From Anaeropeptidivorans aminofermentans (lineage in GTDB: Bacteria; Bacillota; Clostridia; Lachnospirales; UBA5962): a stretch of DNA of 64,000 nt. Each line of letters opens with the position of its first letter. Position 1 is the first letter of the stretch. The DNA lies in NCBI RefSeq assembly GCF_940670685.1, contig NZ_OW711693.1, positions 1,364,001 to 1,428,000 of the forward strand. Reading direction: 5' to 3'. Both the position numbers and the translations under genes were made by a program. Below, piece after piece: positions 50,126-64,000 of the stretch. The notes below the pieces were generated by a model. It was not told the DNA's origin. It saw nothing but the letters and a program-made list of their open reading frames with translations, and did no database searches.

Positions 50126-51031
50126 TCATGTTCTGTGATGGTCCGCAATTTTTTGTGCGTACTTTGATAATTCCTGCCGCAGTTCGGAAGGTTCCAGAAC
50201 CTGAATCTCAGAACCGAAAGAAAGCAGATAATCAATCACCCAACTGTCCATTGGAAAATCTACTTCTACCAAGAAGCTGCCCTCCGGCTGCGAAGTAACG
50301 CTGGTGCGGTCGAACTCGTCGTAGACTCGAAAGGCAAGGCGGCTTGATATGCACAGCTTCAAATGTACCGTTGAAAAAGGCGGCAATTCTGCTTCGATGG
50401 GTGGGATTTCATCCTCGTAATCCTCGGTAAATATCTGGCCTGTTGGCGATACCTCAATGATTCGCCCAACTTTAAAAAGGCGAAAATCATCAGCCTTGAG
50501 ACAAAATGCCTGCAAGTACCAGTGCTTATCTTTATAGACTAGCTTAAGGGGGCAGATGACGCGATTATTTGTTTTACCTGACACACCGCAATAGGTAAGG
50601 GCGAGCATCTGCCGCCCCATAATTGCAGTCTTTAGCAGTTCGAATCTGGCGGTATCCGTCGGGCCCATTCCCCAACGAGAGAAATCCACTTCAATCCAAT
50701 TACGGCGCGGCTTTCGGAATGCTGTTCCGAGCTTTTGCAGCAAGGTATCCACATTTCGGTCAGCCACTTTCAAGCTCTGTATGGCAAAGAGCAGCTCATT
50801 CTGCTCATCATCGGAAAGAAGCGTTTTGTCAAATGTATAACCGGGCATCAAAGAGATGCCGCCGCCCTTTCCTGCCGAGGCGTAAATAGGAACACCCGCC
50901 ATAGAGAGCGTTTCCACATCTCGATAGATGGTCCGTACTGAAACCTCTAAAATGTGGGAAAGTTCAGGGGCAGTCATCATCCCCTTTTCCAACAGTAGGT
51001 AAAGAATCCGAAACAGACGGTCATTCTTCAT
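50126..51031 (-). CDS. YafY-type HTH/WYL-domain transcriptional regulator
   Basis: A 301-residue regulator from the MKNDRLFRIL start at 51031, the usual family start; 51046 (TTG) is possible. The N-terminal HTH_11 (APELSHILEVSVRTIYRDVETL) is followed by a WYL domain with CPLKLVYKDKHWYLQAFC and a C-terminal WCX extension ending SKYAQKIADHHR. WYL domains sense nucleic acids or nucleotides in the studied cases. It leads the zinc-ribbon/DUF3795/DUF3788 operon, which it may control. Confidence 0.88.
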   Translation of the reverse strand: MKNDRLFRILYLLLEKGMMTAPELSHILEVSVRTIYRDVETLSMAGVPIYASAGKGGGISLMPGYTFDKTLLSDDEQNELLFAIQSLKVADRNVDTLLQKLGTAFRKPRRNWIEVDFSRWGMGPTDTARFELLKTAIMGRQMLALTYCGVSGKTNNRVICPLKLVYKDKHWYLQAFCLKADDFRLFKVGRIIEVSPTGQIFTEDYEDEIPPIEAELPPFSTVHLKLCISSRLAFRVYDEFDRTSVTSQPEGSFLVEVDFPMDSWVIDYLLSFGSEIQVLEPSELRQELSKYAQKIADHHRT

Positions 51032-51278
51032 ATTCCTCATCCCCAAGATTTATCATTACACACTAGTATAGCACAAAAGTTTGACAGGTTATATGTCGAG
51101 TTTCTGAACTTTTATAAATTATAATCCTCCGAAATAAAAGTACAATATTTCCATATTTTCATTTTCAGACCTTCTTATGATCCGGGATTAATAGCAGAGG
51201 ATTTTGCATGTCAAAATTTGATTGGTTCAAGCCTTATCTGAAACTGAATATATAGTAGGGTGACTTTTCAGTTAAACC

Positions 51279-51425
51279 AAGGAAGAAAAATTAAATGGGC
51301 ATGTAAAAGATTTTACTATTATAAATATAAAAGGAACCTATGGAGATGGAGCTCTTGCCGGCTCAGGGGATAAAGGCACTTTAATTGATAATGTAAAGCT
51401 TCATGGAGAAATTAATTTTACTTAA
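51279..51425 (+). pseudogene. C-terminal fragment of a GLUG-repeat-like surface protein
   Basis: A 48-codon open frame without a start. It reads GTYGDGALAGSGDKGTLIDN, resembling GLUG-type repeats (GxxGxLAGxxxGxIxN) of surface and secreted proteins, and ends FT-stop at 51425. It abuts a truncated TIR gene tail-to-tail, suggesting a deletion junction. Confidence 0.35.
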
Positions 51426-51427
51426 AA

Positions 51428-51610
51428 CTATAATTTCATATTGAGGCTTAGCAATATCATATCTATAAATTTGCAAATACTATCTCCAGATTTTAAAGCA
51501 AACTTGTCATACCAGGCTTCTATATGATTATCCCTTAACCTTTTTACTAATGGGGGGACAAACTTATCTTTGTCCCCCCTTGTATGACTAATAAAAATAT
51601 CATATAGCAT
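51428..51610 (-). pseudogene. Truncated TIR-domain gene
   Basis: It starts normally: AAAGAGGTG ribosome site, ATG, then YDIFISHTRGDKDKFVPPLV and AWYDKFALKSGDSI, the first half of a bacterial TIR domain. After about residue 47 the family sequence is lost and the frame stops at 60 residues, so the catalytic glutamate region and all further domains are missing. Bacterial TIR proteins commonly act in phage defence by NAD cleavage; this one cannot be active. Confidence 0.6.
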
Positions 51611-51740
51611 AGAACACCTCTTTCATTTCATCCTTTATGCTATTATAATACACTCAATAGATTTTATGTAAATACTGCTTGCAGCTACTTATAAAGCTCT
51701 GATTATACCGTAAATCCTATTTAGATACTTGGCCTAATTT

Positions 51741-51802
51741 AAACGACGGTTGATGTTCGGGAACATTCTTTTTGAGATGTCCGAACATCGGTCGTCGTTT
51801 TC
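51741..51802. terminator. Strong terminator-like hairpin
   Basis: AACGACG plus GATGTTCGG pairs with CCGAACATC plus CGTCGTT; the plus-strand side is followed by TTCT. No complete gene ends next to it; it may be left over from lost DNA. Confidence 0.5.
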
Positions 51803-51859
51803 TATAACCAACTGTGCTTATTTGTGAGAATTCATTGTTTTTAGCTTTAGCAATTAATT

Positions 51860-52108
51860 TTACATCTGGATTTGAAATCTTAAGTCTGGCAATAAAAAGT
51901 AAAAAAGAACTTCTGAACGCCAGTATCTAATTTGCTTTTCGATTTTTTTGTTATAAAACAAGTGTTTGTGCATATTGAATTCCTTATAATCTGAAGTTGC
52001 ATATGGATGTCCCATAACGGGCAAGTAATATATAAGTAAGCCTGTTTCAAAAAATCTAAAGAGCAATACCATACAAGAATGCCATGGCGGCAATATATTG
52101 CATATCAA
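51860..52108 (-). pseudogene. Possible tyrosine-recombinase remnant
   Basis: The frame contains HSCMVLLFRFFETG and IYYLPVMGH, which loosely recall the RHxxA and LGH boxes of tyrosine recombinases. The catalytic tyrosine region is not recognisable. It would fit the idea that mobile DNA passed through here, but the match is weak. Confidence 0.22.
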
Positions 52109-52216
52109 TAATAGTCTTGTTTAAGTTTATGTTGGTATATTATCTTTTTTAAAATGACGATTCTGATTCATCGTCTAAAAATCAAGAGATACCCAATATG
52201 ATTTTGATTGCAGTTA

Positions 52217-53812
52217 TTATATAGCCCTGTTTTCCATCAATTGCTTAGCAATTGTATAGCCGGCAAAATACGACGGTGCCGAGGTATTTCCATCGACCGG
52301 AAACGGAAAGATTGATGCATCCGCAACAATCAGGCCCTGTACGCCATGTACTCTTCCATACTGGTCGACCACGCCTCTCTGATTAAGCGGCGCCATCCGT
52401 AGAGAACATTGTTGGTGATGGTTGTGTGCAAAATCGGACCGGATAAAATTTTCAAGCTGTTCGTCATCATCAATAACTTCTATAGCAGGAGACAGCAGCT
52501 GATAAGCCGGATCTATCAAAGAAAGATGGATAGCGATATTTTTGATATAGTTTCTGTAAATAGCCTTGGTAACTTCCATATCGGCAGGGTTTTCAAGAAG
52601 CCCCTCGTTTGCAAGCACGATTTTCAGCGGATCGTTACTCTGTATCCGAATGGACCCACGGCTTTCAGGTAATAAGTCCTGAATGACAATCGTTAGTATT
52701 TCATGTGAATAAGACCCTATGAGCTGTATACGGCGGTGGTCCTTGCTGCTGCCTTCAAGAGGATTGGGCAAAAACGCACCCCCGGCATATAATGCGTTGG
52801 GTTCTTCCAGCATTTCCGAAATATTATCGCTGTTGACTGTGAAAAATGAGAAATTCAATGTGTGATTTGTCAGGTTCTTACCCACATTAGGATTATCAAA
52901 GATAATAGGTATCCCTGCTCTTTTAAGATCGGCAGAAGGCCCGATGCCTGAGAGCAATAAAAGCTGGGTGCTATTAATGCCTGCCGATACAATAATCTTT
53001 TTACGTGCAGATGCCTGCAGGCATCTGCCTTCATATAAAAACTCAATACCGGCAGCCCTGCGATTGCCTTTAAATCTAATACGCAGTGCCGTCGACTTAT
53101 AAAGCACCCTCAGCTTTCGCCCGTTTATGCCAAAGCCGTCTGGGGTCATCACATCGGATGAAAAAAATGCGGTAGAGGAACTTTCCCGAAATCCGTCGGG
53201 CGTTTGATATAATTGCCATTGAGTAAAGGCACCCATAGGCGTTTGCGGATTATTGTAATCAAGTATTCGACTCAAGCCGGTGGCACGTTCCGTGGCGAGC
53301 GCTAGTTTTTCCGTCATTGCAGGGATATGAATGGGCATCTGCCTGATTGCAATCCGTCCATCATAACCACGAGTGTCAGAATTATCTGTGTTCCCATTAT
53401 AATTCTCTAATTGAGTAAAGCTTTCAGTCGCTTTCAAAGGGCCCCATTGAGGGCCTAAAAGATTTTCCCATTGCCTGAGTGCATGGGGCGTCGGCCGTAC
53501 ATATTGCTGTCCGTTAACAGAAGAACCGCCGCCAGACAATCTTCCCGTTGTCCAGTCAAATATTCTGTTTTCCACGCTCTGCTGCGGAACTCCGAAACCT
53601 TGCCAAAAATACTGCGGATAAAGATCGGCCATATTTGTGGCTGGTTCTCTCACTAATTTATCTTGATCGTTATTTTCTCCCGCTTCTAACACAAGAACGG
53701 AGTCTCTTCTATTATCTGAGAGTAATTTTGCTATAACAGCACCGGCAGGGCCTGTGCCCACTATAATGTAATCAAAAATCATATTTGAAGAATACGGCAA
53801 AGAGTTTCTCAT
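52217..53812 (-). CDS. GMC-family FAD oxidoreductase
   Basis: A 531-residue flavoprotein of the glucose-methanol-choline family, oxidising alcohols or sugars. The N-terminal FAD motif IVGTGPAGAVIAKLL, the GRLSGGGSSVNGQQYVRP signature and the second GMC signature around SAGINSTQLLLLSGIGP are clear. At the C-terminus the usual HPxGTCxMG is replaced by HHQQCSLRMAP, and the final GNTSAPSYFAGYTIA carries the Asn that often pairs with the catalytic His. No signal peptide. TGGAGGTG precedes the ATG. GMC enzymes are uncommon in strict anaerobes; the electron acceptor and substrate are unknown. It stands alone. Confidence 0.85.
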   Translation of the reverse strand: MRNSLPYSSNMIFDYIIVGTGPAGAVIAKLLSDNRRDSVLVLEAGENNDQDKLVREPATNMADLYPQYFWQGFGVPQQSVENRIFDWTTGRLSGGGSSVNGQQYVRPTPHALRQWENLLGPQWGPLKATESFTQLENYNGNTDNSDTRGYDGRIAIRQMPIHIPAMTEKLALATERATGLSRILDYNNPQTPMGAFTQWQLYQTPDGFRESSSTAFFSSDVMTPDGFGINGRKLRVLYKSTALRIRFKGNRRAAGIEFLYEGRCLQASARKKIIVSAGINSTQLLLLSGIGPSADLKRAGIPIIFDNPNVGKNLTNHTLNFSFFTVNSDNISEMLEEPNALYAGGAFLPNPLEGSSKDHRRIQLIGSYSHEILTIVIQDLLPESRGSIRIQSNDPLKIVLANEGLLENPADMEVTKAIYRNYIKNIAIHLSLIDPAYQLLSPAIEVIDDDEQLENFIRSDFAHNHHQQCSLRMAPLNQRGVVDQYGRVHGVQGLIVADASIFPFPVDGNTSAPSYFAGYTIAKQLMENRAI

Positions 53813-54630
53813 TAAAACACCTCCATTTAATCCAATATATGCAACTATAAAACCTACGGAGATAGAATCAAATTAAAAAGATGTTGGTATAAAATGCAGG
53901 TGTTAAACAATTCTTTCCAAAATTAGTTGAAATATTCTCAGCGCTTATTCAATTGATTTTTAGCAAAGGGTTAGAAGTTACTCAATGCTCTTAAAATCTG
54001 CTCAATATGTTTTAATAAGAAAAACTCTAAATTTAAACTGAAATGAAGGCTAAAAGTATTCGTTCTTGATGGCAGAGTATGTCTTCAAGGAGAATAGCTA
54101 CCATCAAAAGCAAAGAATGCTTATGTATATCCTTTAGCTGTCTTAAATGTTGTAATAGTCAAAAAACTTATAAGTATTATGCGAAGACGAATTTGGAAAT
54201 TAAAAATATCAATGTGGATTTATAAAGCGCAAACTTGTACATTATATGTAAGTACAAAAAAGTCATGTAGGGTTTTTATAGTATCGATTTGTTTATAAGA
54301 TTTTAGAAAATAGATTGTATGCTTTAGCAACAGATGGTTAATGCATATACAATGCTTATTTGCGTAATGTGCTGTGATGTGTATAAATATATAAATAAAA
54401 AATAATTAAATTTAAGCAGTAATGAGATTAAAGACGTTTCTCTGTTAAGCAGTCATCTAAATTTAAAAGAGACAGTTATTAGAAAAAATTATATGTTTGA
54501 TGGCCATGCTTTTTAAAAGAGAAGAGTAGGGCTTATTCATGATGAACATTGATAAAAACATCTAAATAATTCCTAAATAAAGGATAGTAAAAAGAGATGA
54601 AATCTTGGAACTTAATATTCTTTCTAATTT
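53813..54630. other. AT-rich gap at the border of the GC-rich block
   Basis: 818 nt with no supported gene. It is very AT-rich up to about 54640, after which composition changes abruptly to GC-rich coding sequence. Confidence 0.55.
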
Positions 54631-56118
54631 CTATTCATTAGTAATATTAAGGGCTAAATAGCTGAGCGTGATACCACGGATATAGTTTTCAAGTTCCTCA
54701 CAGTGTCCTTCTCCGGCCAGTGTCATCAGGGTGCGTAAGTGATGGCGGAAGTCATGGCGCAGCTTTGCACTTTCTTCCACCTTCTGATTCATCTGCCGCA
54801 GATGCTCCACCTGCATGGTAAGCTGTCGTTTCATCTGCCGCTGTTCCTCGGCGTATACAAGGCTGTGGCGGTAACCCATGGTAATATCATACCCCAGCAC
54901 CACTCCGGTTGCGATGACAAGGCTTAAGCTGCCCCATTCCTGAAACCAGCCGCTAAGGATTGGCTCGTAGTTTGGGAGAAGGCGGTCCCAGACAAAAGCG
55001 CAGGCATAGATGATATCTGCATAGAGCAGTATGGTCGCTTTTTCTATCGTACGGCGTACCGCCATAGCGGCGGTAAACAGAAGATAAATAGCGGTAAGCA
55101 GCTTGAAACCGAAAACCAGATTGGAAAAGGCAAGCATCACCGGCAGTGTAAGATGCGCAGCAAATACCCCGTAAAGAAGCACCAACATACAGACAACTCC
55201 GGAGGCGGCACCGCTGATTACCTGCATAGTTCTTTTTGTGTCGCAGATGCGATTGTGGAGAATGATCACAAGCAGCGTTACCAGATATCCGCTGACCAGT
55301 TCTACCGTGTACCACGGCTGGATCGGCAGCGGAAGAATACCATGCACCACGCTGTAGGAAGTAAATACTGCGGTCGAAAGGCACAAAAGAAAAAAGAGCC
55401 AGATATTGTTCCCACGGCGGGTACGGATGGCAAGATAAAAGCTAAAAATGGCAAGCATCAATGTTACCGTGACCAAAATCAGGCAAATCCCGAACCGCAG
55501 TCCCCGGATGGTGTAAGTATTCAGAGGTTCGCCAAAGGAAGGCGGATAAACAAGACCGCTGTATAAAAAGGAGTGGTCACTGACCGCAAGCAGAAGTGTC
55601 ACCTTGCCGGAAGCTTCAAAGGTAATGACACGGCATTGGGTCTGGTCCTGATAATCGTCTGGCTCCGGTTCGCCCATTTGCAGCTTCAGTTTATCATCAA
55701 TGTAAAACCGGTAAGCGGAATAGATTTCAGGCAGTTCAATGGCATAGGTATGTTCCTCCTCCGGCAGGTACAGTGTTAAGGCATAGCTGGCGCTTCCATG
55801 AGGGGAGCGGCGGGAGTCGCCCATGGCAAAATTAGACTGTTCTCCAATGGACAGGTACTGATAATTGTCACCCTGTTGTATTAAGGTTTCCGGTGTCAGC
55901 AGGCGGTCTGCATAGAAACGCCAGCCGTCCCGCAGATAGCGGATGGGTGTGTCTGTCCAGTCTGCTTCTGAAACATACAGCGCACCGTTAATGGCCTGAG
56001 GTGCTGCCTTTGTGTACTTATTGTCAAAGTGGTATAGGGCAAGAAACAGAGCGGAGGAAAGGGCAACCATCAGAAGCAGCGCCAAAGATCGCCGTAATAC
56101 AAAAGGTTTTTTATCCAT
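54631..56118 (-). CDS. Sensor histidine kinase lacking its ATPase domain (7TM-DISM/GHKL type)
   Basis: A 495-residue protein. One N-terminal membrane segment ([19 protein letters not shown]), an extracellular 7TMR-DISM-like beta domain (about 50-200), seven membrane helices (about 205-400), then a helix with the phosphoacceptor box [14 protein letters not shown] (about 451-464). The GHKL ATPase domain (N, G1 and G2 boxes) that should follow is absent. The frame ends about 30 residues after the H-box, just where base composition drops, so it is most likely truncated by a deletion or element boundary. It starts 8 nt inside the surface-protein gene. Confidence 0.75.
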
Positions 56119-58369
56119 GGCGTTTCCTCCTGAAAAGTGTAATTCCTCCCGCAGCTAAAAGCAAGCCGCCAGATACGGGAAGCAGAGGCGATGTACTTTT
56201 CCCAGTCTCCTGTGTATTTGATAGTTCTGTAATGGTATAAGTTCCTGCCGTATCTGCTGCAAAGCGCAGAAGTTCCCCGTCATAGGAAACATCTGTAATA
56301 TGTTCCCCAGCTTCATTTTGAATGGTGATATCAGTCTGTTCCGACTTCGGCATGTATCGAAGCCGCAATACTGTTCCCGAAAGCTGCGTAACCGGTTTGC
56401 CTGAAACCTCCACTGCAAGCACAATCTGATTGCTTTCCGGCTGGGTCAGCATAACAGTCAGAGTATCCGCATCCGACAGGTTCAGTGCTAAAAGCAGCTT
56501 GCTTGGAATACTGACGGTTACATCGCCGGAACCAAATACGACGCTTTCTTCCTCTTTACAGAGATCCTTTAGACGCAGACCGGAAATGACCGTTTGGGTC
56601 GGAGAATAGGATTCTGTAACAGTGGTAGATACCTGAGATTCTAAGCTTTTCTCCGACTGTGTAGTGTTATCGTCCGGTACTGGGCTGCCTACTGTTTGGG
56701 TACTGTCCTTCGGTTTGGGTACTGTATCGTTTTTTTGCTCAACAGAAGTACTCTCTGCTTCCCGTGAAAAGAAAGCATCGGAAAACACTGGTACCGCTGA
56801 TTCAGTCGGAGTGGCAGGAGTCACGGCTGTCGGTTTCTCTGTTACAGGAACCTGAGCCTGTGAATTGCCTTCGCTGTTATGACTGTCATTACTTTGAGAG
56901 TCACTGGGTGATTGTGGCGCAGATGGAGACGGCTCATCTTCATCTGTTGAGGAATTCTGTCCTCCCTGCGGTTTCTGTTGTTCTCCTGATGAGGATGAAT
57001 CCTGTGAGGGCTCATCTGTATCTGAGGAGGAATCGCTCGTATCAGGTGAATCATTATTATTACCTGAATTGTTATCCTCATTGGAATTATTGGGCGGATT
57101 GGTTGGAGGTGGAGCAGGTTGTGTACCGGTTCCTGAACCTCCTCCATTTACATCGCCGCCATCTCGGTCACCACCGGAATAATCAAGAATACTAAGCTCC
57201 CCGTCATATTGAAAGGTCAGAACACCGGTCTGACCGCCGGGATAGGTCACCTTAAGCTCATAAGTGCTTCCATAGGTAAGTACTCGCTGAGAAAGCTGGA
57301 GACCATCGGAGACAGACAGAAAGCCATCATTTAGGCTTGCCCATTCTCCGCCATCTTGCCGTAGCCATACAGCAAACTCCTCCAGTTGTTTCTCCTGTGC
57401 GGCAGAAAGCACCCACGGAAAGCGCAGAAAGCCACGTCCCGCTACACAGCAGTTAATATCCGGCTTACCGGGAACCTGAATGGAAACCGCACAAAGCTGC
57501 CGGGGCAGAGAAACACCGTTTGCCAGAGTATACTCTGTTCCAAGGTCAGGTGATGTAAAAGCATAGTACACGCCTGCCGTGACAGTGTCTACGGCATCCA
57601 AAGACCATGCACCTGAGATTAAGTCATAGGGATTGCCATCTGCATCATAGCCGGTAAAGCCTGCGATGGTATCGGCAAACCAATTGGAAAGCTCCTCCTG
57701 CGTGGTTCCTACGGGGAATGCCACGGCATCTGTCCGGTAGGGTTCATCAAAGCTGGTCAGAGTGATTGCAGCAGGCGTTACGGTAAGTAGCGGAGCAGTT
57801 ACCTGTACAGAAACGGCGACCGTATTTTCTAGTCCTTCGGAAAGCGTTGCTCCGGCTGGAATGGAAATGTTTCCAATCACAGTGTAAGTACCGGGTGTCT
57901 CTGCATCCACTGTGCTGAAATCCCATGCAACAGACAATGTAAGCGGATAGGAAGAACCATCCTTTTCTGCTGTGGTGGGAATGCTGATAGAATCCAGTTC
58001 ATTCTGTAACTGCGTAAAGTCGGTATCGCCGTAATCCGTATTGAACGTACTTGTGAAAGCATCTGGGGTAGTATAGGAAATGATACTGCCGGTATAGTCA
58101 AAGGTGTCAGGAATGGCACTGTCTTCAGTTCCGCCCGCTCTGACAGTGCTGTCGCCTGTACCTCTGGTTTCATCACCATCTGTGACCATATCTGCATCGG
58201 AAGGAGTCGTGGTGTCTATGCTGTCATCCGAAACAGAACCGCTGCCGTAATCGGTAACAGTATCTGTGGTTTCGGCAGGTACAACCGGTTCCACTGCCGC
58301 CAGTACAGGCGGTGCAAGTGCTGTACAAACCAGAAAAGCGGTTAAAATCAGTGCAAGTATCTGCTTCAT
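56111..58369 (-). CDS. Secreted surface protein with Ig-like domains and C-terminal anchor
   Basis: A 752-residue protein. Signal peptide ILALILTAFLVCTALAPPVLA, Thr/Asp-rich spacer, then two bacterial Ig-like (BIG4-type) domains around residues 88-190 and 195-300 with the PGTYTVIG motif. A Ser/Asn/Asp/Pro low-complexity stalk (about 410-565) follows, then another folded segment (about 600-715). The end has a hydrophobic helix and RRKRHG tail preceded by SPLLPVSGG, sortase-like but not LPXTG. It is sandwiched between response regulator (4-nt overlap) and kinase (8-nt overlap), so it may be the extracellular sensor of that system (inference). Confidence 0.75.
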   Translation of the reverse strand: MKQILALILTAFLVCTALAPPVLAAVEPVVPAETTDTVTDYGSGSVSDDSIDTTTPSDADMVTDGDETRGTGDSTVRAGGTEDSAIPDTFDYTGSIISYTTPDAFTSTFNTDYGDTDFTQLQNELDSISIPTTAEKDGSSYPLTLSVAWDFSTVDAETPGTYTVIGNISIPAGATLSEGLENTVAVSVQVTAPLLTVTPAAITLTSFDEPYRTDAVAFPVGTTQEELSNWFADTIAGFTGYDADGNPYDLISGAWSLDAVDTVTAGVYYAFTSPDLGTEYTLANGVSLPRQLCAVSIQVPGKPDINCCVAGRGFLRFPWVLSAAQEKQLEEFAVWLRQDGGEWASLNDGFLSVSDGLQLSQRVLTYGSTYELKVTYPGGQTGVLTFQYDGELSILDYSGGDRDGGDVNGGGSGTGTQPAPPPTNPPNNSNEDNNSGNNNDSPDTSDSSSDTDEPSQDSSSSGEQQKPQGGQNSSTDEDEPSPSAPQSPSDSQSNDSHNSEGNSQAQVPVTEKPTAVTPATPTESAVPVFSDAFFSREAESTSVEQKNDTVPKPKDSTQTVGSPVPDDNTTQSEKSLESQVSTTVTESYSPTQTVISGLRLKDLCKEEESVVFGSGDVTVSIPSKLLLALNLSDADTLTVMLTQPESNQIVLAVEVSGKPVTQLSGTVLRLRYMPKSEQTDITIQNEAGEHITDVSYDGELLRFAADTAGTYTITELSNTQETGKSTSPLLPVSGGLLLAAGGITLFRRKRHG

Positions 58370-59091
58370 ATTCCCTCCCCCCGTAGCGAACCGGCGGAGA
58401 GACTCAGGCGCTGCCCTTGTACCTGCCGTTGCAGGCGACGGCTGACCGGCAGCTGCTCCCCGTTTTTCAGGATAAGATAATCGCTGCCAAGCTCCCGCAC
58501 TTCCTTTAGGTTGATTACAATACCCTTAAAGCAGGACATAAACTGCGGATAGGAGCAAAGCTTATCGGAAAGCTCCGAGAAGCTGCCGGATACCGGAACG
58601 AGACAGTCCTTTAAATGGATACAAGCAAAGCGGTTCTGATAATCCGCATAGAGAATCCTGTCCAGCGTGATTTCCAGCAGCTGATTCCTTGTGGTAACCG
58701 TGATGGAGGGAACGCTCTGCGGCTCTGCAATCTTGCAATAGTGCAGTGCCCTTGAGAGTTTGTCCAATGTGGCTGGTTTTACGATGTAATCCGCAGCACG
58801 GACATCGTAGCTTTTTACACCAAATTCTGAGCTGGTGGTAAGGAAAATAAGATTGAGATTCTCGTCCAGCTGTCGCAGCTTCAAGGCGCAGTCCACGCCG
58901 TTTTCGTTGTTCAGATAAATATCCATAAAGACAACATCATAGCTGCCCGGTATGTAATCGGCAAGTAATTCCCTGCCACTGTGGAATTCTGTAATTTTCA
59001 TTGGTTGATGCTGATTGGTTTCATATTGCTTCAAAAGGTTGCGGAGTATTTCACACTCAGTAGCCATATCATCTACGATTGCCGCATTCAT
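58366..59091 (-). CDS. LytTR-family response regulator
   Basis: A 241-residue regulator from the ATG at 59091 (AAGGAGG 8-9 nt upstream). The receiver domain has acidic DD near residues 7-8, the phosphoacceptor in VVFMDIYLN, LTTSSEFGV and the lysine in YIVKPATLD. The C-terminal LytTR DNA-binding domain (about 135-235) has ILYADYQNRFACIHL and FKGIVINLKEVREL. First gene of the minus-strand operon with the surface protein and kinase. Candidate binding repeats lie in the divergent promoter region (59159-59187). Confidence 0.9.
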   Translation of the reverse strand: MNAAIVDDMATECEILRNLLKQYETNQHQPMKITEFHSGRELLADYIPGSYDVVFMDIYLNNENGVDCALKLRQLDENLNLIFLTTSSEFGVKSYDVRAADYIVKPATLDKLSRALHYCKIAEPQSVPSITVTTRNQLLEITLDRILYADYQNRFACIHLKDCLVPVSGSFSELSDKLCSYPQFMSCFKGIVINLKEVRELGSDYLILKNGEQLPVSRRLQRQVQGQRLSLSAGSLRGEGI

Positions 59092-59129
59092 TTGAAATTC
59101 CTCCTTCTGTACATAATTATCCAATTAAC

Positions 59130-59158
59130 ATTATACCATATATTTCAGGAAAAAAATA
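59130..59158 (-). promoter_or_regulatory. Promoter of the LytTR operon
   Basis: On the minus strand a perfect TATAAT (59135-59130) has a weak -35 (TATTTT, 59158-59153) at 17-bp spacing. A weak -35 next to a regulator site fits activation by the LytTR protein. Confidence 0.5.
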
Positions 59159-59187
59159 ACCGCTTGTGCAGATTTTCGACCGCTTGA
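59159..59187. promoter_or_regulatory. Candidate LytTR binding site (direct repeat)
   Basis: Two direct repeats ACCGCTTGT (59159-59167) and ACCGCTTGA (59179-59187), 20 bp start to start, match the 9-bp LytTR half-site pattern and 11-12-bp spacing as I recall it, with one or two deviations each. It sits 10 bp upstream of the plus-strand -35 and adjoins the minus-strand -35. Confidence 0.55.
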
Positions 59188-59197
59188 TCATAACCCA

Positions 59198-59226
59198 TTG
59201 AAAAACAATTGACAAAATGCTACCCT
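59198..59226 (+). promoter_or_regulatory. Promoter of the small-protein/giant-adhesin operon
   Basis: TTGAAA (59198) and TACCCT (59221) with 17-bp spacing. The weak -10 fits a regulator-dependent promoter. A nearby TTGACA at 59209 has no well-spaced -10. Confidence 0.4.
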
Positions 59227-59230
59227 AATA

Positions 59231-59275
59231 AAAACTACCAGACTTCCTGAAAAAGGGGGTCTCGGTAGTTTTTTA
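59231..59275 (+). terminator. Terminator-like hairpin in the leader of the adhesin operon
   Basis: AAAACTACC-AGAC pairs with GTCT-GGTAGTTTT, followed by TTAATTTCC. No plus-strand gene ends upstream, so it would be transcribed right after the promoter and could act as an attenuator. Confidence 0.65.
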
Positions 59276-59305
59276 ATTTCCAAAAAGGGAAAGGAGGACT
59301 CTATT

Positions 59306-59695
59306 TTGAATGTGGCGTTATGCGGTGTAGATGAGAAAACCGCCTGTGAACTGGAACGATACGGTGAATACCGTATTCTGCGTTTTTCTGACGAGCCGGA
59401 ACGGCGCGGTGATGTAAAGCTGGCCTATTATCTGCGGGACGGTCCCCGTGTGTCGCTTACCGTTGTGGGCTATCCCGGAGCCGAGGGGCTTTCCGCCTGT
59501 GATTATCTTCGGGCGCAGAGCCGTGCGCTGCCCATCATTTGGCTGTGTAACCGGCGGGAATTTGAATCGGAAGCAAAGCGGCTGAATGTCTGTTTTTGCA
59601 GCACCGGCCCACCCGGAAAGAAGAACCTTTTTGCAATGCTGATGCATGTCGGCTTTTTGTCCAGTACCGAATTGGATGTTTGCAGCGGCAGATAA
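59306..59695 (+). CDS. Small receiver-like protein preceding the giant surface protein
   Basis: 129 residues from a TTG start with AAGGAGG 8 nt upstream. The layout (a central TVVGYPGAEGLSACDYLRAQ, then LPIIWLCNRREFESEA, then a glycine/lysine turn) recalls the second half of a receiver domain, but the phosphoacceptor Asp is absent and the N-terminal acidic pair is missing. It is likely a non-phosphorylated pseudo-receiver or an unrelated look-alike. It lies 74 nt before the giant gene and is probably co-transcribed. I cannot assign a function. Confidence 0.6.
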   Translation: MNVALCGVDEKTACELERYGEYRILRFSDEPERRGDVKLAYYLRDGPRVSLTVVGYPGAEGLSACDYLRAQSRALPIIWLCNRREFESEAKRLNVCFCSTGPPGKKNLFAMLMHVGFLSSTELDVCSGR

Positions 59696-59769
59696 GCAAA
59701 AGGAAACAAGAAAGAACGAATAACAAACAATGCCGCTTCAAAAGAAGGGCATTGAGCATGGAGGTATTT

Positions 59770-62700
59770 ATGGAAATACAACAAATGGCGGAGCGCATCA
59801 CCAGTGTTTCCGCCCGAAAAAAGGCAAAGCGGCTGCTGGCGGCATCGCTGGCTGTGCTGATGATCAATCCGGTTACCGGCTATGGCGTTGCGGCCCAGGC
59901 GAGGGAATCGGAAATCATCACGGCCTTTGTGGAGCTGCCCGGAGAGATTACTGCCCAGCAGCTGGAGGTAGGCGCGGCGGAATCGGGAATCCGACTGCCG
60001 GATACGCTGGATGTGACAGTCCGTGTTGCGGCGACAGACACCGCTGACGGCAATGAGGAAGCAGCTCAGTCCGAGCGAAGCACTACGGAAGAACCGGCGG
60101 CAGATGAAAATTCATCCGGGGATGCGTCAGTTTCTGGAAATGAATCGGTTGAGCCTGAAAATCAGGACAACAGTACAGCGGATAGTCTCGCTACAGGCAG
60201 TGAAGCCGAGCTTATTTTGGACAGCGGCGCAGAACCTGTTCCGGGTAACAGTAGCGCTGACCCGTCTGTAGAAACCACCACCGGCTCCGCCACCATCACA
60301 AATTTAGACGATGCGGATACCGAGCAGACAGAACCCGAAGCATTCACCTCGGAAGAGCGGACGCTGGTGGGCATCACATGGCAAATCAATGCGGATAACA
60401 GCACTTCCCAATCCTTTGATTCCAGTGAAAACGGCGCGTACTATACCTATGTGCCTGTTTTGCCGGAGGGTTATACCCTCGCGGACGGCGTGAGCTTGCC
60501 GGAAATCAACGTGCTGATTGGCAGCGCTATGATGATGCGTACATTATCTGGCGATTCGCCAATTTCCATCGGCGGCACAGCCGTTGAGACTGACGACTGG
60601 TACGCCCTCACGGACGAAAGCGGTACGGTAAGCACCGCGGACGCGAACGCGGACAATTGGAATGTCCATGTGACGAAAGACGATACCGATACAACCGTTA
60701 CCGTGACACTAAAGGATGCCACCATTGCAAACAATTCTTATTCTACCCATGCCATTGATGTCAGCGGGTATGATTTAGAGATTGTATTGGAAGGCACAAG
60801 CAACCGAATCGGAACAGGTACCACGAACGACAACGGCTATGCCGTATATAACAGAACTGACGGTAAGGATATCACCATTGGCGGCGCCGGGGATTTAACC
60901 CTGATGGGCTATTATGGCATATCCATCAACGGAACAGGCAACGTGGCCGTTGAAGTTGACGGCAGTCTGACCGTTCAATCCCAATGGCAAATGATCAGCT
61001 GCGGAGGGCAGCTTGATGTAACCGCAAAAAGTATCACTATGAATGGATATTACATTAATTGCGGTAACGGCGGCGTAAGCCTTGTTGCCGAGGACGGAGA
61101 TGTCAATATCAACGGCACCGGGGATTATGGTATCAAAGTTGATTCTGACATTTTGATATCCGTTCCAGAAGGTGCGATTTCCATAAGCGGCGAGAAATAT
61201 TCCTTGTATACGTCGGCAGGCACCCAAATTTCTGTTTACGCGAAAAACGACGTTTCCCTGACGGAATGTGTGCAAGGGGGTGACGGAATCGAGTCACAGA
61301 TTACCCTCACATCGCAAACTGGGGACATCACCGTCAACAGCGAAGATTATCAAGCCATTGCCGGCGCCAAAACGTATCTGGGGCTTTCAGCGCCAGAGGG
61401 GGATATTACGCTGACGGCGGAATCCTTAGGTCACAATGTGATTGCCGGAAGCAGTTATGAACTGAGCATTCTCGCGCGCGGCACGCTGGACGTGCAAGGG
61501 CAAGACGGTATTACTGGCTTCAGCACGGCGAATATCAAGGCGGAAAAGGTCAATATTGCCGCCACCGGCGACGGATATGGCATGAGCGGCGAAATCGTGT
61601 CCGTTACCAACCCCGAGGGCGGAAACTGCACGGATATCAGCATTTCCGGTGGGGGCGGCAGCCGGAATGCGCTTAACACGGGAGATCTTACCCTCAAGGC
61701 GGATAGGGTGATTGTCGCCGTCGCAAGCAACGCATCCTCCGCCATTTCTGCATACGGCGATGTCAGCATCGGCGACGCGGGAATGATTATCGGAGGAACG
61801 ATCGCTTCCGGCACAACAACCATTGCGGACGGTGTTCTGCAGGTGCAGGCGTCCGGCCCTGACGCGTCAAGCGGTCTGGATTTAAAAACCAATACGCCTG
61901 TTTATTCCACCTATTACAAGGCAGGGAACGGCTATGCGCTGTTTACACCGGCGCAGGATGATACGCCCGCCGTGCTGACGCTGCACAACGCGGAAATCGA
62001 AAACAATGACACTCCTCTGCAGCTGGTCGCGGATACAACCATTAAGCTGGAAGGCACGAACTATTTGACCAACACAAATACAACAAACGGCACGGTAGGG
62101 ATTCGTGCAAGCGGGACTGACGGCGCTTCTCACTCAGTTACCTTCCAAGGCGGTAATGACGATTCGCTGTACGTTTCCGCATGGCAATGCACCTCAGGCA
62201 TTGAGGAGATGACTATTTCCGGCGGAAAAGTCACTGTGTACGGCAGCTGCTATGGAATAACTGACACCGGGAATGTGCTGCTGGAAAACGGCGCACAGGT
62301 ATCCGTTACAGGCGGAGAAGACGGCGATGCGCTTTCGCTTGGTTTTCTTGAAGATGACGAATATGAGAGTGCCGCAAGGAACCTCACCATCAGCGGTGGA
62401 AGCTCCCTTGCCGCCTACGGCTATGTCATGATTCCCGGCAATTTAATAATGAGCGGCGAAAGCTCATCATATACCGCCGAAGAGGAACGTAGCGTTGTTT
62501 TAGGCGACCTGACAATTGGCAACGGAAGCACTTTGACCGTTCAGTCGGGCAGTGAGTTTAATGTGCGAAATTCCTCCTCCGCTGTTACCAACGAGGGAAC
62601 CCTCATCAACAACGGCATACTTCTGCTGCCTTACGAATACAACGCCGCTAAAGTCGCGGCATTGAACATCACCGGTAGCGGCGTTGTCAAGCTGTACTCC

Positions 62701-64000
62701 ATGGGCGAATTCCCTGAGGACGACCGCTACAAGGTCTATGTAAACGGCGAATTTTACGCGGACGGCGGAGAGCTGAATGCTCAAGGCTCATTGAATCTTA
62801 TCGACCCGCCTGAGGAAGCCACCTATTATAAATCGTCGGCAGACGACGCATATATCATTTACACCCCGTCATCCGGCAGTGCAGACGCCGTTGTGACGTT
62901 GCACGGCATGAATAATACAGGTTATCTGCAAGGCGGCATTGTTCTGCCAAATGCACCGGTTACCATTCGTGTGGAGGGAAATAATGAAATAATCTGGATA
63001 AGCGTTTCGGAAGCTGTTCACATTACCGGAAGCGGACACATTACCGGAAGAATTGAAAACGCTTCCTCCTCCGCCGAGCTGACCATCGACAGCGGCGTGA
63101 TTGCGAACGTCATGTATTCGACAACGACAGGCGGCGTTATCACGAATACAGTGTACGGCAATTATTTGACTAATGATGTTTATGTAACTGCAACCGATAA
63201 GCTGGTACTGATGCCCGGCACGGTTTTGACCGTGAATGCCGGATATGGGGAACTTGCTTTCAGCGAGGGAGCCAGCCTTTCTGATATGGGCATCGGAACA
63301 GGCGCGTCCATCGTGAATAATAACTACATCACTCTGCCTAAGGGTACAACAGCGGCGCAGATTGCGGTACTGCCCCTTTCCGGCAGCGGCGTTGTGCGGG
63401 TTGCGACGGCATATGATGATGGTTCGCCTTCCGCATGGGACACCTACACCAACGACGGCGTAGCCGTGAAACAAATCGGCGATGGGGGTTCTGGTCTTGA
63501 CCTGACAAGCGGCGACCACAGCGGCAAAACCGTAGCAAACGACGGCTATGCTTGGAACACCGACAGCAAAACATTAACCCTTGGTAACGCCTACATTGCC
63601 GGAAATCTGACGCTGCCTGCCGGAGCAATTGTCAACACGACTGCCGCTGCAATAATAAGCGAACGGCTTGAGGGCGAGTCCGGCGTGGCGATGAACATAA
63701 CCCTTGGCGGCACGGCGCCTTTGACCGTCGGCGGAGGCATCAGCGGGGGAGCAAATGGAGATCTTGTAACCGTTCAGGGCGGCGCGCAGGTTACGGTGGG
63801 CGGTTCCGTGTTTTTAGGAGCCTCCGGCGGAACAGACGGCACATTGACTGTCACCGGCGCGGGAACCCGACTGAGCGTTTCATCCCGTTACGGCTACGCG
63901 GTGATGTGCGATACGGTGAATGTGGGAAGCGGCGCGTCCATGACCGCCAACGGCGATTCCATCGGCGTGGAAGCACTGACCGGCGTGAACGTCACCGGCG
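59770..64000 (+). CDS. Giant repetitive secreted surface protein (partial, runs off the window)
   Basis: Open from ATG 59770 to the last base: at least 1,410 codons with no stop, translated line by line. GGAGG lies 5 nt before this ATG; an in-frame ATG at 59758 is less well placed. A basic N-terminus (SARKKAKR), hydrophobic stretch and AAQA give a signal peptide. An acidic Glu/Thr/Ser region follows (about 90-195). The rest is Gly/Ser/Thr/Asn-rich beta-strand repeats like a beta-helix adhesin. Related modules restart near residues 276, 712, 1017 and 1257 (YY-K, Y-L/I-YTP, A-VTL-, then IxLEGxN). Adhesion or surface-coat role is inferred; the C-terminal anchor is outside the window. Confidence 0.85.
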   Translation, partial: MEIQQMAERITSVSARKKAKRLLAASLAVLMINPVTGYGVAAQARESEIITAFVELPGEITAQQLEVGAAESGIRLPDTLDVTVRVAATDTADGNEEAAQSERSTTEEPAADENSSGDASVSGNESVEPENQDNSTADSLATGSEAELILDSGAEPVPGNSSADPSVETTTGSATITNLDDADTEQTEPEAFTSEERTLVGITWQINADNSTSQSFDSSENGAYYTYVPVLPEGYTLADGVSLPEINVLIGSAMMMRTLSGDSPISIGGTAVETDDWYALTDESGTVSTADANADNWNVHVTKDDTDTTVTVTLKDATIANNSYSTHAIDVSGYDLEIVLEGTSNRIGTGTTNDNGYAVYNRTDGKDITIGGAGDLTLMGYYGISINGTGNVAVEVDGSLTVQSQWQMISCGGQLDVTAKSITMNGYYINCGNGGVSLVAEDGDVNINGTGDYGIKVDSDILISVPEGAISISGEKYSLYTSAGTQISVYAKNDVSLTECVQGGDGIESQITLTSQTGDITVNSEDYQAIAGAKTYLGLSAPEGDITLTAESLGHNVIAGSSYELSILARGTLDVQGQDGITGFSTANIKAEKVNIAATGDGYGMSGEIVSVTNPEGGNCTDISISGGGGSRNALNTGDLTLKADRVIVAVASNASSAISAYGDVSIGDAGMIIGGTIASGTTTIADGVLQVQASGPDASSGLDLKTNTPVYSTYYKAGNGYALFTPAQDDTPAVLTLHNAEIENNDTPLQLVADTTIKLEGTNYLTNTNTTNGTVGIRASGTDGASHSVTFQGGNDDSLYVSAWQCTSGIEEMTISGGKVTVYGSCYGITDTGNVLLENGAQVSVTGGEDGDALSLGFLEDDEYESAARNLTISGGSSLAAYGYVMIPGNLIMSGESSSYTAEEERSVVLGDLTIGNGSTLTVQSGSEFNVRNSSSAVTNEGTLINNGILLLPYEYNAAKVAALNITGSGVVKLYSMGEFPEDDRYKVYVNGEFYADGGELNAQGSLNLIDPPEEATYYKSSADDAYIIYTPSSGSADAVVTLHGMNNTGYLQGGIVLPNAPVTIRVEGNNEIIWISVSEAVHITGSGHITGRIENASSSAELTIDSGVIANVMYSTTTGGVITNTVYGNYLTNDVYVTATDKLVLMPGTVLTVNAGYGELAFSEGASLSDMGIGTGASIVNNNYITLPKGTTAAQIAVLPLSGSGVVRVATAYDDGSPSAWDTYTNDGVAVKQIGDGGSGLDLTSGDHSGKTVANDGYAWNTDSKTLTLGNAYIAGNLTLPAGAIVNTTAAAIISERLEGESGVAMNITLGGTAPLTVGGGISGGANGDLVTVQGGAQVTVGGSVFLGASGGTDGTLTVTGAGTRLSVSSRYGYAVMCDTVNVGSGASMTANGDSIGVEALTGVNVTG

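Follow-up and report, generated by a model that had tools for sequence, protein, structure and literature searches.

A putative horizontally mobile LytTR signalling cassette linked to giant surface proteins in Clostridia

The DNA stretch of 64,000 nt analysed here (the window) contains genes that are probably best understood as a horizontally mobile, three-component LytTR signalling cassette controlling giant surface proteins. In the proposed circuit, a GHKL-type membrane kinase equipped with an extracytoplasmic domain would act together with a membrane-held Ig-like protein to control a LytTR regulator. The regulator would bind a single direct-repeat box between two divergent promoters and would activate its own operon, the operon for pseudo-receiver and giant SLH protein, and any further copy of the latter cassette in the genome. 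The wiring from regulator to giant protein appears well supported by comparative sequence evidence, whereas in the source genome the local kinase is probably unable to relay signals in the proposed circuit.

Gene layout and recurrence in Clostridia

The source genome consists of one contig of 3.76 Mb, and the features of the locus are compiled in Table 1. Regulator, Ig-like and sensor genes overlap by exactly 4 and 8 nt, as had been stated in the original prediction. All eight of the closest related loci share the 8-nt overlap, and most of them the 4-nt overlap as well. The regulator matches PF00072 with 59.8 bits and PF04397 with 39 bits, both above the curated cut-offs. Its phospho-acceptor residues (DD, D, T, and K), as read from the window sequence, are intact, and phosphorylation of the regulator is predicted.

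Table 1. Features of the LytTR locus and of the adjoining giant-protein operon
Feature	Position	Strand	Basis
Truncated sensor kinase, 495 aa	54631..56118	-	domain searches, comparison with intact orthologues
Kinase breakpoint	54631..54667	-	similarity to intact kinases ends at 54667; unrelated AT-rich DNA beyond
Ig-like surface protein, 752 aa	56111..58369	-	domain searches, structure model, gene overlaps
LytTR response regulator, 241 aa	58366..59091	-	domain scores and residues read from the sequence
Regulator-side -10 region (TATAAT, conserved), 23 bp away from the box	59130..59135	-	cross-locus comparison
LytTR-type box ACCGCTTG-N12-ACCGCTTG between the divergent operons	59159..59186	+	comparison of intergenic regions
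Predicted adhesin-side promoter TTGAAA, 17 bp, extended TGC-TACCCT	59198..59226	+	conserved spacing
Hairpin with T run where the adhesin-side transcript is predicted to begin	59233..59274	+	folding
Stand-alone pseudo-receiver, dREC2 type, 129 aa	59306..59695	+	fold model, alignment, profile search
Giant repeat surface protein, 2,082 aa	59770..64000, on to 66018 beyond the window	+	reading on in the genome, domain search

The giant beta-repeat protein, of which more than 1,410 residues had been recognized within the window, could be completed by reading on in the genome from the ATG at 59770 to the end at 66018. Its C-terminal end harbors three SLH domains (PF00395, 107 bits over three stretches, above the cut-off) and choline-binding-type repeats. 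About 100 bp after this gene, and about 2 kb past the end of the window, a second cassette opens with the same box and promoter, followed by the genes for dREC1, dREC2, and a second giant protein (window-extended positions 66119-78390; L007/L008). The designations dREC1 and dREC2 refer to two related types of small pseudo-receivers, which usually occur in series; the cassette in the window has dREC2 only. Beyond the second giant gene, a sigma-like gene is followed by genes for an AgrC-like GHKL kinase and another LytTR regulator.

A search for this gene arrangement located the trio of regulator, surface protein, and kinase genes in about 15 loci of Clostridia. It recurs across Clostridia and is therefore not unique to this strain. 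Matches to the Ig-like protein were obtained in 10 of 392 genomes sampled from the order, four of them clear besides the source genome itself (G031, G290, G348, and G330), and a kinase profile scan of 84,980 species genomes yielded 22 loci. The trio is present in two Anaerovorax, Anaerotignum, Fusibacter, Anaeromicropila, Proteocatella, Anoxynatronum, Marasmitruncus, Clostridium fessum, Roseburia faecis, a Lachnospiraceae MAG, and two deeper loci (L048 and L049). In an Agathobaculum MAG its frames are broken, and in Blautia wexlerae the regulator gene has moved to the other side. Divergent pseudo-receivers, a giant protein, or both are found in most loci with the trio. Four loci (L045, L046, L048, and L049) contain the trio without either, and the adhesin therefore cannot be the sole target of the family. 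Three more distant kinase loci, L050 to L052, represent a sister layout with a swapped regulator: a different exported protein is encoded beside the kinase, the regulator is of the OmpR type in both loci tested (L050 and L052), and L052 also specifies a surface protein of 1,303 aa. Full-text searches of the open-access literature, the coverage of which is incomplete, returned no paper describing the layout.

The LytTR-type box and its divergent promoters

Comparison of the regulator intergenic regions revealed a pair of direct repeats with a period of 20 bp, recognisable in 13 out of 15. Taken individually, several of these boxes, including the one in the window, are only mildly improbable, with a chance rate of 1-2% in shuffled sequences. 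The weight of the evidence lies rather in the fact that period and place recur although the lineages differ in their repeats, of which there are three distinct sequences. On the adhesin side, 10 bp separate the end of the second repeat from a TTGAAA-like -35 region, which is followed after 17 bp by an extended -10 region, TG-n-TAYNNT. The -10 region is weak and the promoter was missed by a simple promoter scan; such weakness is expected of an activator-dependent promoter but is no proof of one. Published LytTR repeats from Staphylococcus carnosus are nearly identical, ACCGCTTGT-12 bp-ACCGCTTAT, and are likewise located 10 bp before the -35 region, which is the published activating position of such repeats (PMC6193735). 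Facing the regulator operon, a TATAAT or TATACT sequence is located 22-24 bp from the box in 11 of 13 loci. There is no -35 consensus on this side, and the box thus lies directly behind the position where a -35 region would be. Another minus-strand promoter suggested by the scan, TTGTCA-N17-TATGAT, on visual inspection lacked conservation in L034 and L038, and the nearer TATAAT was preferred.

The exact 16-base box is present in two copies in the source genome, both before pseudo-receiver/giant-protein cassettes, once in G031, and twice in Anaerotignum (G290). The second Anaerotignum box is located on another contig, directly before a second set of genes for dREC1, dREC2, and a giant protein of 2,151 aa. 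In Marasmitruncus (L040), a second box precedes a second dREC pair as well. The position of these boxes in front of such cassettes constitutes the strongest evidence that the targets of the regulator belong to the dREC/giant-protein class. The original prediction had an outer protein sensing a surface or partner and switching on the putative adhesin. The link between the regulator and the adhesin promoter is borne out at the sequence level by LytTR-type direct repeats conserved before adhesin cassettes, an unlinked one included, but the signalling part of the claim probably does not hold locally, where the kinase has no ATPase domain.

In the adhesin-side leaders, a strong hairpin followed by a T run was detected in 9 of 13 sequences folded, representing two lineages, and by eye some of its pairs change on both sides between species. 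Its absence from L034, L036, L038, and L084 rules out a universal control element, and a search of the leader for known RNA families gave no match. The hairpin may be an early, promoter-proximal terminator or a protective 5' stem.

Horizontal mobility and the truncated kinase

G031, which belongs to another GTDB family, carries a copy of the locus with 95% identity over 54667-59246. While DNA identity between the two loci is 94-96%, it is 73% for the C-terminal part of rpoB. Because of this discrepancy across families, the locus is, by the measure of sequence identity, mobile and has been passed between distant Clostridia.

The gene described originally as a 7TM sensor does encode a membrane sensor, but the 7TM label reflects a sub-threshold Pfam match and the catalytic half is missing. 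The 7TMR-DISM_7TM model gave 18.4 and 21.7 bits, 18.4 for the window protein, against a cut-off of 29. In the window, the product consists of an extracytoplasmic domain, a multi-pass membrane part, and the His-box region. Intact orthologous kinases carry in addition a HATPase_c_5 (GHKL) domain, which is missing from the window protein; the G031 counterpart is full-length, 644 aa, and includes the GHKL ATPase domain. Similarity ends just past the phospho-acceptor region RHDFRHHL...ENYIRGIT, and the frame closes about 11 residues later. The DNA past the breakpoint is AT-rich, with about 27-37% GC. Coding capacity for the ATPase domain was absent from all three frames downstream of the breakpoint and from the rest of the genome, where the best match, 29% identical, belongs to another kinase. 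A simple frameshift is thereby ruled out. A search of 854 bp of the replacing DNA in seven relatives revealed no meaningful match indicating its origin. Immediately behind the breakpoint, at 51000-54666, a GMC oxidoreductase gene is surrounded by low-GC stretches, which look like DNA gained or rearranged in the event that truncated the kinase.

With the ATPase domain missing, the switch in the source genome is probably broken or rewired, and the cassette probably either remains locked in a single state or depends on a different kinase. A serious contender, to which we give somewhat less than even chances, is that in this genome the mobile cassette is a remnant in decay and has no role in regulation. 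The loss of the kinase ATPase domain from the genome would fit decay, as would the frame of the second giant gene, which is split near 72302-72403, the lack of dREC1 in the first cassette, and the existence of a decayed copy in Sporanaerobium (L033). However, regulator, Ig-like protein, and the giant protein of 2,082 aa all have uninterrupted frames, and the differences between the regulator genes of the window and G031 are mostly synonymous (23 versus 6), although these changes may predate the truncation.

As to the surroundings of other copies, the one in G031 is flanked by genes for a relaxase and a large serine recombinase, and annotation by eye placed serine recombinases near those in L033 and L041.

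The Ig-like protein, the pseudo-receivers, and related systems

In the signalling cassette favored here, the Ig-like protein would act together with the kinase. It starts with a signal peptide followed by Ig-like domains, a GDRDGGD motif, a disordered linker, and a final beta domain, and ends with LPVSGG, a transmembrane segment, and a basic tail. Ig-like sandwiches, the linker, and the last beta domain were also apparent in the structure model; Foldseek matches were at class level only, with low TM-scores. The Asp-rich GDRDGGD-type motif (57152-57174), located just ahead of the linker, is near-invariant in the family and is perhaps a metal site. Similarity to the giant protein was confined to one Ig-type stretch of 48 residues (E 0.006), and no weight is placed on it as a sign of homology between the two proteins.

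The protein had been described as an Ig-like wall protein; its Ig-like nature stands, but wall anchoring is uncertain, as the sorting motif is lost in several orthologues. In the window protein, LPVSGG scored 21.4 bits with the NCBIfam LPXTG_anchor model, above the cut-off, and stayed below the cut-off of the Pfam model. The orthologues have LPVTGG (L040) or LPISGG (L032) at this position, and elsewhere LPASMG, FPIASG, LLTSWG, or LLLIPA, which rules out LPXTG anchoring as a trait of the family. The C-terminal membrane segment and the basic tail are mostly kept. Their retention despite loss of the LPXTG-like motif suggests that the Ig-like protein is held in the membrane beside the kinase, where it might modulate kinase activity by analogy to QseG, which has been shown to bind and stimulate the kinase QseE (PMC6075780). 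It is also conceivable, though rather unlikely, that the protein is a purely structural surface protein riding in the operon without any part in signalling, while the regulator still controls the giant protein. Such a role would be in line with its position as the least conserved member of the trio in the comparison with G031 (90.7% protein identity versus 97.5% and 97.7% for the other two), with its long disordered linker, and with a sorting-like signal in a genome encoding two sortases. Yet the gene stays with that of the kinase even in the four loci devoid of the giant protein (L045, L046, L048, and L049), and it is the membrane segment rather than the sorting motif that is mostly conserved.

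The small protein encoded divergently, predicted to be receiver-like, proved to have a receiver fold. AlphaFold models it as a (beta-alpha)5 receiver (pLDDT 83), and the nearest solved structures are the REC domains of XynC and ComE (TM about 0.68). A profile of the family of small proteins finds the receivers of LytTR-type regulators, among them one in the source genome. According to the alignment, the small proteins lack both the Asp that is phosphorylated in receivers and the acidic pair, and thus fit the published definition of pseudo-receivers, a receiver fold with the phosphorylation residues lost (PMC12632262). They share this combination with the pseudo-receivers described there but differ in being one or two stand-alone, single-domain proteins, without output domain, that head a surface-protein operon. 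As a guess, they could feed back on kinase or regulator. In an extended version, doubtful as a whole, the circuit would be a self-contained mobile surface-display switch: Ig-like protein and kinase would keep watch on the cell surface, possibly on the giant protein or on the target of the latter, the regulator would drive its own operon and every dREC-giant-protein cassette via the shared box, and the two co-expressed, phosphorylation-dead receivers would report the expression of the giant protein back to kinase or regulator. It is improbable that the regulator represses the adhesin-side operon or that the box only autoregulates the regulator operon, since the location of the box between two promoters, abutting the regulator-side -35 position, is outweighed by second boxes before dREC-giant-protein cassettes without an adjoining regulator gene and by the distance of 10 bp to the -35 region known for activation (PMC6193735); activation is thus the inferred mode.

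The signalling cassette proposed here is a variant of LytTR two-component control and not a new category. Systems of the AgrCA, ComDE, and VirSR type combine a receiver-LytTR regulator with a GHKL kinase and paired direct repeats upstream of target promoters. The present type of locus shares the regulator architecture and has such repeats before its predicted target promoters, and the GHKL domain is found in its intact kinases. It differs by the surface protein gene between regulator and kinase genes, by the large extracytoplasmic kinase domain, and by targets that are apparently pseudo-receiver/giant SLH-protein operons, and no peptide pheromone gene was noticed at the locus. LytTR Regulatory Systems are defined by regulators without receiver domain (PMC6193735). 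With two of them, HdrRM and BrsRM, the locus has in common near-identical ACCNCTTR-type repeats 10 bp before the -35 region and a membrane protein encoded with the regulator. Here, however, the regulator contains a complete receiver and is paired with a cognate histidine kinase, and the partner is an exported Ig-like protein instead of a multi-pass inhibitor (PMC6193735). An accessory envelope gene conserved in a kinase/regulator operon, as in the trio loci, is also typical of the three-gene operon QseE-QseG-QseF, but its envelope protein is a Gram-negative lipoprotein and its regulator a sigma-54 regulator; the likeness is one of layout only (PMC6075780).

For the giant surface proteins of anaerobic and gut Clostridia, the locus offers a concrete candidate scheme of regulation. 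It brings together three themes seldom met in one cassette, namely a surface protein co-encoded with its sensor, a target operon headed by stand-alone, phosphorylation-dead receivers, and horizontal mobility. The box can be used as a search motif for the regulon. In G031, an imperfect box-like pair with three mismatches is located upstream of an amine-oxidase/mutase-like gene (L085 about 9720; G031:C1:4312719), which may be a further member of the regulon or a chance occurrence.
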